DNA of 64,000 nucleotides, taken from assembly GCA_001314865.1 (NCBI GenBank), contig LJZR01000007.1:1-64000 (forward strand). The letters run 5' to 3'. The notes beneath the pieces were generated by a model. It searched no databases, was not told the origin of the DNA, and worked only from the letters and a program-made list of their open reading frames with translations. A program made the translations under genes and the position numbers. Within the stretch, counting starts at the first letter, position 1. Every line of letters begins with the position of its first letter. Positions 2,152 through 4,385 of the stretch are shown in pieces. The DNA is from Phormidesmis priestleyi Ana (GTDB lineage: Bacteria; Cyanobacteriota; Cyanobacteriia; Phormidesmidales; Phormidesmidaceae).

Positions 2152-2400
2152 GTGGCAAAAAATACAGTCAAATTGCTAGATGTCGTTGCCTTGACCGTTG
2201 ACTGTCCTGAATACAACCTGTGGCGTGGACAAGTGGGGACAGTGGTTGAACTGTTGGCTAATGGTGCCGCTTTTGAAGTTGAATTTAGCGATCGCAACGG
2301 ACGGACATATGAGTCTATTGGGTTGCGCCCAGAGCAAATAATGGTGTTGCATTTTGCTCCAGCATCACCTGATTTTAAGCCCGAAATGGTCACGGCATAG
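2152..2400 (+). CDS. DUF4926-type small protein
   Basis: An 82-residue protein, MAKNTVKLLDVVALTVD onward, with the SH3-like pattern of DUF4926: VKLLDVVAL, then WRGQVGTVVELL, then FEVEFSDRNGRTYES (family recalled from memory). A frame-compatible GTG lies three codons earlier, at 2143, but it sits inside the strong Shine-Dalgarno GGAGGTGAT (2139-2147). That signal is ideally spaced for the GTG at 2152, which I therefore take as the start. It lies just behind the DUF6883 gene, an association I recall from other cyanobacteria. Partner or antitoxin roles are guesses. Confidence 0.75.
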   Translation: MAKNTVKLLDVVALTVDCPEYNLWRGQVGTVVELLANGAAFEVEFSDRNGRTYESIGLRPEQIMVLHFAPASPDFKPEMVTA

Positions 2401-2459
2401 CGCATCGCAGTACCATCACTACGATGGTGGCAACTGGGCGTCCATTCCCTTCCTTAAAC

Positions 2460-2494
2460 AAAAAAAGGGTTCACAGGTCTACACCCATGAACCC
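2460..2494 (-). terminator. Intrinsic terminator of the 123-residue protein gene
   Basis: Read on the minus strand, the hairpin GGGTTCA - 14-nt loop - TGAACCC is followed directly by seven T residues. It lies about 40 bases beyond the stop codon of the minus-strand gene that ends at 2532. Confidence 0.7.
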
Positions 2495-2531
2495 CAAATT
2501 CTGTTGTTGTTTCCTTTACGTCTTAAGCGCC

Positions 2532-2903
2532 CTATACGGTCGCCATCTCAGTCGCTGTGGTTTTTTTCCTCGTGGGTCGCTTGCGATCGCGACTCCTTAC
2601 CCCCCCTGCCATTTCATATTCCGAGCTGTCCTTGTCATAGCGAATCGCAACATTCGCCAACATCTTGCCAGAGAAAGTTGCCAGTGCCTTTTCAGAGGCT
2701 TCAAACGCATTGTAAGCTTCATCTAGCTTCGAGAGTAGCGTATTGTAAGTATCCAAATCGGCGTTGACTTTGGTAATAAGCGCTGCGAAAGCCGTGTTGG
2801 AAAAGCCGCTACCAAAATCGAGTTTAGGATCAATCGATCTCATTCCCGAAAGGCGCTTTGTCGCATTGGGCAATACAGTAGATTTTTTCTTAGGTCTTGG
2901 CAT
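2532..2903 (-). CDS. Conserved cyanobacterial small basic protein
   Basis: A 123-residue protein starting MPRPKKKSTVLPNATKRL. The basic N-terminus is followed by a helical stretch that looks coiled-coil-like (residues about 40-80, NADLDTYNTLLSKLDEAYNA). It ends in a highly charged tail rich in RKR/RKKT. I recognise the type from cyanobacterial genomes but know no function. The frame is open ten codons further upstream; I chose the ATG at 2903 because AAGGTG lies seven bases ahead of it and the upstream residues look like translated leader. The basic ends hint at nucleic-acid binding, which is inference only. Confidence 0.65.
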   Translation of the reverse strand: MPRPKKKSTVLPNATKRLSGMRSIDPKLDFGSGFSNTAFAALITKVNADLDTYNTLLSKLDEAYNAFEASEKALATFSGKMLANVAIRYDKDSSEYEMAGGVRSRDRKRPTRKKTTATEMATV

Positions 2904-2972
2904 GGTGACGCACCTTGCAAATATAGACAACAAAATTCAGTAAACGCCTTTTCCCACAAGGATCACAGGGGG

Positions 2973-2993
2973 CAGCAGGTCATTTACCTGCTG
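2973..2993. repeat. 8-bp-stem hairpin upstream of the small basic protein gene
   Basis: CAGCAGGT - CATTT - ACCTGCTG, a perfect stem with a 5-nt loop, about 70 bases upstream of the minus-strand start codon at 2903. It has no T-run. It could be a leader hairpin or an operator. Confidence 0.4.
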
Positions 2994-3159
2994 TTACAGT
3001 ACCCGCCTAAAACACTAAAAATCACACTCGCGATTGCGTATAATCACAAGCTTTTTCATAAAGATGCGATCGCACCCTCCCACACAGCCGTAACCCTACG
3101 GAATTGCCCTCCTATATCGGTAACTCGCGTGCATAATTTGCCAATTCATTGACACACAT

Positions 3160-3411
3160 CGGCGATCTGCCTTCATAGATCGGCGATCTGTCTTCATAGA
3201 TCGCCGATCTGCCTTCATAGATCGGCGATCTGTCTTCATAGATCGGCGATCTGTCTTCATAGATCGGCGATCTGCCTTCATAGATCGGCGATCTGCCTTC
3301 ATAGATCGGCGATCTGCCTTCATAGATCGGCGATCTGTCTTTATAGATCGGCGATCTGTCTTTATAGATCGGCGATCTGTCTTTATAGATCGGCGATCTG
3401 TCTTTATAGAT
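3160..3411. repeat. Tandem array, 12 x 21 bp, GATC-rich
   Basis: Twelve contiguous copies of a 21-bp unit (cggcgatctgccttcatagat) with only three variable positions (C/T at 11, C/T at 15, and one G/C change in copy 3). A partial copy follows. Each unit junction forms the palindrome AGATCG-G-CGATCT around one central base, and each unit contributes two GATC sites, so the block has more than 20 GATCs in about 250 bp. The last four copies share the same T variants, which suggests recent unit-by-unit expansion from that side. It lies between the small basic protein gene and tRNA-Arg. There are no spacers, so it is not CRISPR. Confidence 0.95.
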
Positions 3412-3475
3412 CGGCAGATCACAAGCGTACATCAGCAGATCATGACGCCACTTCAGCGAATGTTATGAATATCAA

Positions 3476-3549
<74 letters not shown>

Positions 3550-3746
3550 AAAAGGGATTGAGCGCTGCATTTGGCCTAGCCTGTTAGCCAGTAACCTATC
3601 AGCCAGTCAATGATATTACAAGCTCGTGGCATTTTCAAAACAGTCTGAAGCCGCATCAAGCAAAAAATAATCCTTTTGGGTACGCTAACCTCACATTCCT
3701 AGGCTGATAAAACTGCTTAGCCGGAGTTTTTGCAAGTGCTGACATC

Positions 3747-4385
3747 ATGTTTTTGCTAACCCCTAACGAAGTTGAAATCATCCGAATTCAACATCCAACC
3801 AAAGATAAGAAAGTCCCTATTTTGTCCTACGACGACAAAACATTTCGGCTGCTCAGCGTATTCAGCGCACAGCAAGAATCAGAAGCCCATGCCGCCTGGC
3901 GAGAGCTCACTGAAAACGAAGGCAAAATGTGCGTACTGCTCGAAGAACGCTCTCGCTACAGCGTTTGGCGGCAGGTTCGGTTAGACAAAGAAATGCTTCA
4001 GCCCATCGCACCAGCGACTTACATCAAAGCCTGTGTGCTCATGCTTCAGGCCATGTGTAGCGATGTTGAACAACTGCTAGGCAGTCGGCAAGCCAACAGC
4101 TTTGGCGCTGCCATAGAAGCCAACGCCCTCCGTCAAATCGAAGCCGCAGGCGGAATCGCCCATATCCTTAGGCTCGATCCCCTGACAGATATCCTGCCTT
4201 CGTGGGAGGAAGACGACCTAAGCGCCCTTTTGCTAGAGATGCATCGATTGGGCGCTAAGTTTTTTGGCCGATCCCAATTTGTATCGCGCACACTGGCCGC
4301 CTTAGATGACTTGAATCCAAACGACAAAACGATGTTTTTGCACTGGCTAGGACTGTCTTTGCTCAGCAACCTGTGGCTGGCTTAG
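3747..4385 (+). CDS. Npun_F0813-type conserved cyanobacterial protein
   Basis: A 212-residue soluble protein. The opening MFLLTPNEVEIIRIQHP, the segment ILSYDDKTFRLLSVFSAQQE and the motif KMCVLLEERSRYSVW match the Npun_F0813 family as I remember it, a cyanobacteria-restricted family of unknown function. No signal peptide or membrane helix is seen. The C-terminal half is rich in leucine and alanine helices. It stands alone between tRNA-Arg (opposite strand) and a membrane-protein gene 77 bases downstream. Confidence 0.75.
   Translation: MFLLTPNEVEIIRIQHPTKDKKVPILSYDDKTFRLLSVFSAQQESEAHAAWRELTENEGKMCVLLEERSRYSVWRQVRLDKEMLQPIAPATYIKACVLMLQAMCSDVEQLLGSRQANSFGAAIEANALRQIEAAGGIAHILRLDPLTDILPSWEEDDLSALLLEMHRLGAKFFGRSQFVSRTLAALDDLNPNDKTMFLHWLGLSLLSNLWLA

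Follow-up and report, generated by a model that had tools for sequence, protein, structure and literature searches.

The 21-bp tandem array described here belongs to a two-part module that is dispersed over the chromosomes of some cyanobacteria, and forms its upstream half. The module consists of an array of 21-bp units, a putatively regulatory spacer and a gene for a small, basic and mostly helical protein; that array and gene recur together as a module is close to certain. The window, the whole stretch of 64,000 nucleotides that was analysed, corresponds to C126:1-64000, and its left edge is therefore the end of the contig. Read along the minus strand, the order is tRNA, array, small gene, and the features of the locus are as follows.

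3475-3550, minus strand: tRNA-Arg(TCT), 54 bp from the array; a neighbour of the module here and in the relative G006, elsewhere not part of the module.
3158-3420, minus strand (gene sense): 21-bp tandem array of 12.5 units (TRF), the upstream part of the module.
2904-3157, minus strand: 254-bp spacer separating the array from the gene; some blocks in it are conserved among paralogs of the genus.
3088-3101, no strand assigned: CCGTAGGGTTACGG, an imperfect palindrome that is conserved, with consensus CCGTAAnTTTACGG, in the majority of 11 aligned spacers.
3026-3051, minus strand: terminator-like hairpin and T run in the array-gene spacer, weak as a family-wide feature.
2990-3007, minus strand: GGCGGGTACTGTAACAGC, a block common to paralogous spacers; consensus GCGGGCATTGTGAnAGCAGC.
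2532-2903, minus strand: gene for a 123-aa basic protein of a multicopy family, starting with the ATG at 2903 and under purifying selection.
2466-2495, minus strand: terminator-like hairpin past the gene (family-wide, 29/111 in gene sense).
158-1240: ParA-like ATPase, about 2 kb from the array.

The single array that TRF finds, at 3158-3420, has 12.5 copies of period 21 with 96% matches and without indels; it is slightly longer than in the preliminary description, which had correctly placed it beside the tRNA-Arg gene. The near-identity reported for its units is borne out: across the 12 full units (3158-3409) variation is limited to three positions, T/C, C/T and a single G/C at the centre of the palindrome, and like units stand in runs, the final four being of one form and units 6 to 8 of another. 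Identity at a lag of 21 bp is 0.946, against a maximum of 0.361 among 1000 shuffles. The array contains 25 GATC sites, in line with the more than 20 first reported (window average 4.9 per kb), and 11 occurrences of AGATCGGCGATCT, 10 forward and one reverse in which the centre base is flipped. The proposed genome search for further clusters of this motif placed it in the window array alone, across an assembly of 5.93 Mb.

The protein partner belongs to an uncharacterised, multicopy cyanobacterial family. Comparison of the window gene with its G006 counterpart gives a dN of 0.12 and a dS of 1.55 (dN/dS ~0.08), with third positions carrying 54 of the 85 differences, which marks it as a real, constrained protein gene, while the adjoining array has drifted. 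The protein has a pI of 9.8 (family median 9.5, n=58); its first 24 residues contain seven K/R and no D/E, and the region past residue 100 contains eight K/R and two D/E. An AlphaFold2 model with a mean pLDDT of 90 predicts a helix at residues 11-24, a 54-residue helix at 36-89 and a loose tail. Conservation in the family is strongest at KDSxEYEMAGG, close to the C end, although one of the scan patterns was built on this motif and its conservation in the set of 80 relatives is partly a product of how that set was picked. Searches of Pfam, PDB sequences, Foldseek and VIA-align revealed no recognisable DNA-binding fold. Pfam matches among 31 members were weak and scattered, the lowest E being 0.0007 (two members), and no family was matched by more than five members; the best E in the PDB sequence search was 0.026; Foldseek with the predicted model returned no match at E<=0.001; and the best VIA-align Z of 5.5, over 74 residues, lies in the range that the tool calls common for helical models.

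Matches to the 123-aa protein number 73, in 17 of 58 genomes, with six in this genome (G000), and 45 of the 73 were fetched. All six copies in this genome were found with an upstream array of period 21, the units differing between copies; TRF gives one of these arrays as period 63, or 3 x 21. In a first set, limited to copies with enough upstream sequence, a copy was counted when its best period was 21 or 42 and its identity over 126 bp reached at least 0.5; by this measure 33 of 41 copies had such a period at -650 to -150 and 1 of 40 at -1250 to -750, while 0 to 2 of 150 random 500-bp windows in each of five genomes pass the same period threshold. A scan of GTDB contigs yielded 268 relatives, and of the best 80 that were kept, 79 lie in records titled cyanobacteria and one in a record labelled Desulfobulbaceae. 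In the second set, drawn from these best 80 of 268 and overlapping the first in some genomes, 46/73 copies had an upstream period of 21 or 42 and three more a period of 41, compared with 4/69 and 0/67 in controls and 1/78 downstream of the gene. When the sets were pooled, counting copies distinct in their first 200 bases rather than independent lineages, a strong 21- or 42-bp period was seen at -650 to -150 in 69/101 and further upstream in 5/94; among the weak cases the best period was 21 or 42 in 12/28 (control 10/87), and 20/101 copies showed no best period of 21 or 42, strong or weak. Within the G003-G006 clade, six of nine copies could not be judged, having short upstream sequence or decayed genes. 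At other genes an upstream period was found in 1/122 cases in the same loci and in 1/167 on contigs of this genome without array hits. These data place phased tandem direct repeats directly upstream of, and on the same strand as, one small-protein gene. At least five 21-bp arrays in this genome have no recognisable copy of the gene within 3 kb:

C28:4342-4566, 21-bp array without family gene.
C45:47089-47243, 21-bp array without family gene, 100 bp from a tRNA-Val.
C40:10201-10440, 21-bp array without family gene.
C40:50288-50652, 21-bp array without family gene.
C133:374-677, 21-bp array without family gene.

These may be remnants, given that decayed copies occur in other genomes, or the class of arrays may be wider than the gene.

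What is conserved in the arrays is their period and place. The 65 best arrays, which passed a length and identity cut and were preselected for period 21 or 42, fall into 43 unrelated clusters (blastn-short, E<=1e-3), with no motif common to the units of different clusters and hence no unit sequence conserved across the family. Their mean identity is 0.58 at lag 21 and 0.48 at lag 147, falling to ~0.25-0.28 one base to either side, so that identity is found at exact multiples of 21 only, up to 147; since these arrays were preselected for period, it is the linkage tests and not this lag profile that carry the claim. Repeat length is conserved, but at either 21 or 42, higher-order units of 42 bp being common. 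GATC is absent from 40 of the 65 arrays, and a dyad at p<=0.05 is present in 4/65 consensus units, compared with 8/186 flank k-mers and 1/65 spacer k-mers (rank test p 0.055). A profile test had indicated a general palindrome in 22/65 arrays at p<=0.05; it is confounded by contiguous conserved columns, and we rejected this candidate on the consensus test. The GATC density and the 13-bp palindrome, both raised in the preliminary description, are local peculiarities of the window. That account had itself taken freely varying array length with no conserved palindrome as the mark of a neutral repeat, and on this reasoning too the palindrome falls, the G006 array having diverged and Nostoc-type arrays differing by whole units.

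Within units, variable positions are clustered at p<=0.05 in 13/59 of the arrays preselected for period and in 2/41 background arrays, which is what a constrained core in each unit would produce; in the window array the clustering is not significant (p 0.24). Autocorrelation of W/S composition revealed no phased 10.5-bp signal inside the unit. Coding for a heptapeptide, hinted at by open frames (YEDRSPI in the window and a homologous frame in G006), was considered and rejected: stop-free frames occur in 27/65 arrays in gene sense (27.6 expected) and 25/65 in antisense (24.4 expected), as often as after permutation of the 21 columns, so that the array has no appearance of coding for a peptide.

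We tentatively read the array as a docking platform, spaced at two helical turns, for the neighbouring basic, long-helix protein, a reading that we place somewhat short of an even chance and infer from the fixed two-turn spacing, the free unit sequence, the basic helical protein and the constrained core suggested in some arrays. The iteron-like protein-binding array of the preliminary description thus survives as the preferred reading, with period and gene linkage as its basis in place of a palindrome and a GATC density that are not conserved. The protein, or a complex containing it, would dock once per unit and, because 21 bp corresponds to two turns of B-DNA, on one face of the helix; docking at many phased sites could then build up cooperatively into a nucleoprotein patch, whose task would be to control the gene of the module itself or to mark the locus and condense it. 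Units would drift and be re-homogenised by whole-unit duplication provided that the spacing is kept, which would explain a fixed spacing combined with a free sequence, and a recent homogenisation in the window may have produced its near-identical, palindromic and GATC-rich version. Against docking stand the lack of a motif common to different clusters, unexpected where a protein recognises a specific site, the copies with no best period of 21 or 42 (20/101), the gene-less 21-bp arrays of this genome (at least five), the lack of a recognisable DNA-binding fold and the non-significant clustering within the window's units. A further proposal, possible but doubtful, is that the spacing is itself the information: each paralog would keep its own 21-bp array, free in sequence and enforced in phasing, and the modules would act as dispersed, individually addressed nucleoprotein landmarks.

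The spacer, usually 140-235 bp long in these modules, bears on a different partnership, in which the array would be transcribed in gene sense, end at a terminator before the gene and yield RNA units that bind the protein, in the manner of a type III toxin-antitoxin system. Such systems share the layout of repeats, terminator and gene, as far as the cited account describes them (PMC5086642), and here too the array lies upstream of the gene on the same strand, with a terminator-like hairpin at 3051-3026. The palindrome-like CCGTAAnTTTACGG and the block GCGGGCATTGTGAnAGCAGC are common to the spacers of 11 paralogs of the genus. Two terminator-like sites were found in the stretch, where 1.2 are expected. 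Among 65 spacers, 12 have such a site in gene sense, compared with 7 in antisense and 5.1 in shuffles, which leaves 53 without one; past the gene the counts are 29/111 in gene sense, 13 in antisense and 5.6 in shuffles, so that these sites are commoner 3' of the gene than between array and gene. No consensus RNA structure was found in the spacers, and, read in gene sense, the arrays do not as a rule fold better than versions with permuted columns (z<-2 in 7/65 in gene sense and 13/65 in antisense). The unit measures 21 or 42 nt rather than 34-36 nt, the modelled protein is helical, and none of the libraries searched contained a toxin-like match for it. We consider this partnership unlikely; the type III comparison fails on unit length and is without RNA-structure support.

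A self-expanding, selfish element, whose protein drives duplication or spread with 21 bp as the copying step and with no host function for the array, is improbable to much the same degree. It fits the dispersal and turnover of the module. In a phylum-wide draw, 12/244 genomes were positive, 10 of them with 2-14 matches (counts that include fragments), and eight genomes picked for carrying the family have 7-14 matches each. Neighbouring genes vary between loci, the largest neighbour family occurring in 7/80. Between conserved flanks in G321 the module is absent, 1073 bp of L353 (query 2398-3470) corresponding to 106 bp, and G320, G325 and G327 retain decayed remnants with only fragments of spacer and gene. 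In Nostoc-type genomes, the differences between orthologous arrays come in whole units, and the flanks and edge units are kept. The element does not fit the missing ends: in 64 copies with roughly defined ends, no terminal repeats beyond chance were found except one 21-bp direct repeat, and the longest inverted match averages 8.2 bp, compared with 7.7 bp in shuffles. We also found no nuclease or recombinase motif in the protein, no relatives in viral contigs or phages, and a single plasmid record. At the window locus itself, the tRNA-Arg(TCT) gene adjoins a DUF7469/Npun_F0813 gene (window 3747-4385) in 26 of the 29 fetched loci of relatives, and among the same-genus genomes examined the small gene is kept beside the tRNA only in G006. 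There, a diverged repeat of equal period lies between small gene and tRNA, and blastn-short joins it to the window array as a homolog. By eye, the 3' side of the tRNA seems to bear an integrase in G001, G002 and G005. The family copy in L323, the MAG record labelled Desulfobulbaceae, has an array of 42-bp period and may reflect transfer or a mis-binned cyanobacterial contig.

An ordinary neutral minisatellite in a genome prolific in tandem repeats, akin to the fast-evolving minisatellite first proposed, is very unlikely. In the sampled stretches short tandem arrays are unusually dense in this genome: 841 were counted over 1.18 Mb, and 186 over 318 kb of contigs that lack heptad hits, which gives 0.59-0.71 per kb against 0.13-0.18 in G001, G002, G006 and G046, and the runs of identical neighbouring units in the window are what recent local duplication would leave. 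Most of these arrays, however, have periods of 12-15 outside ORFs and of 12 and 15 inside them. Period 21 accounts for 7/529 non-ORF arrays below 150 bp; at >=150 bp it accounts for 7/11, with period 63 in one more, in a biased sample of contigs chosen for heptad-query hits, and for 1/2 on contigs without such hits. The 21-bp class also stands upstream of the one gene family in repeat-poor genomes such as G003 and G006, and its period and place are not independent of gene identity. From the divergence and whole-unit differences of the arrays plain neutrality does not follow, since units unrelated in sequence keep both the period and the linkage to the gene.

That the array is a centromere-like site for the ParA-like ATPase at 158-1240, a partition role suggested at first by their proximity of about 2 kb, is scarcely credible, since at E<=1e-40 this ParA has one relative in the 57 other genomes of the 58 searched (G075, 57% identity), on a contig with none of the 12 family copies listed for G075, and the array-gene pair recurs without any recurrent ParA neighbour or parA/parB linkage, the G006 locus being free of ParA within the 7 kb read. 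At 1801-2400 of the window, genes of DUF6883 and DUF4926 lie side by side and are possibly a functional pair.

The module is apparently undescribed in the open-access literature that we searched, which mostly leaves aside subscription papers, and within that literature there may be no kind, tested or nameable, that combines a fixed period with a free unit sequence beside one gene family. If this is right, filamentous cyanobacteria possess a conserved type of locus that has escaped notice, since the protein matches no family in the libraries searched and the array resembles a random minisatellite in any single genome. Each genome would then hold several natural replicates of how a protein enforces spacing without sequence, or of how repeat RNA and protein co-evolve. 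The palindromes, GATC sites and nearby ParA, which invite a tempting reading of the window, are not conserved features.

Among known systems, the short tandemly repeated repetitive sequences of cyanobacteria are likewise tandem DNA repeats in cyanobacterial genomes, but have heptanucleotide units and are not known to be linked to a gene family, unlike the 21-bp units and gene family described here. In the iterons of plasmid origins, as in the module, direct repeats with a length of about two helical turns precede a gene, there that of the protein which binds them; their unit is conserved within an iteron family, whereas here the unit sequence is free, the location is chromosomal and there is no replication gene. 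In the type III systems ToxIN, CptIN and TenpIN, tandem repeats, sometimes a terminator and then a small gene follow one another on the same strand, and repeat number varies; the ToxIN examples given in the cited account have 2.8-5.5 repeats of 34-36 nt and an endoribonuclease toxin (PMC5086642). Measured against that account, the module differs in its 21/42-bp units, in the lack of any RNA structure found and in its helical protein model, for which searches gave no family match to a ToxN-type endoribonuclease and no informative fold match. StbA of plasmid R388, as far as the cited account goes, is a small DNA-binding protein that binds direct repeats around its own promoter and acts in stability without need for a ParA-like partner; its stbDRs, carried on plasmids, have one fixed sequence and come as two groups, each of five 9-bp repeats with 2 bp between them (PMC3098194). 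Compared with what is described there, the units of the module are 21 bp long and free in sequence, each genome has several copies on the chromosome, and the binding is putative; the adjacency of a small-protein gene to direct repeats is shared. By analogy, StbA with its repeats would be the nearest known logic for the module, and type III toxin-antitoxin the rival with the next best match in layout.
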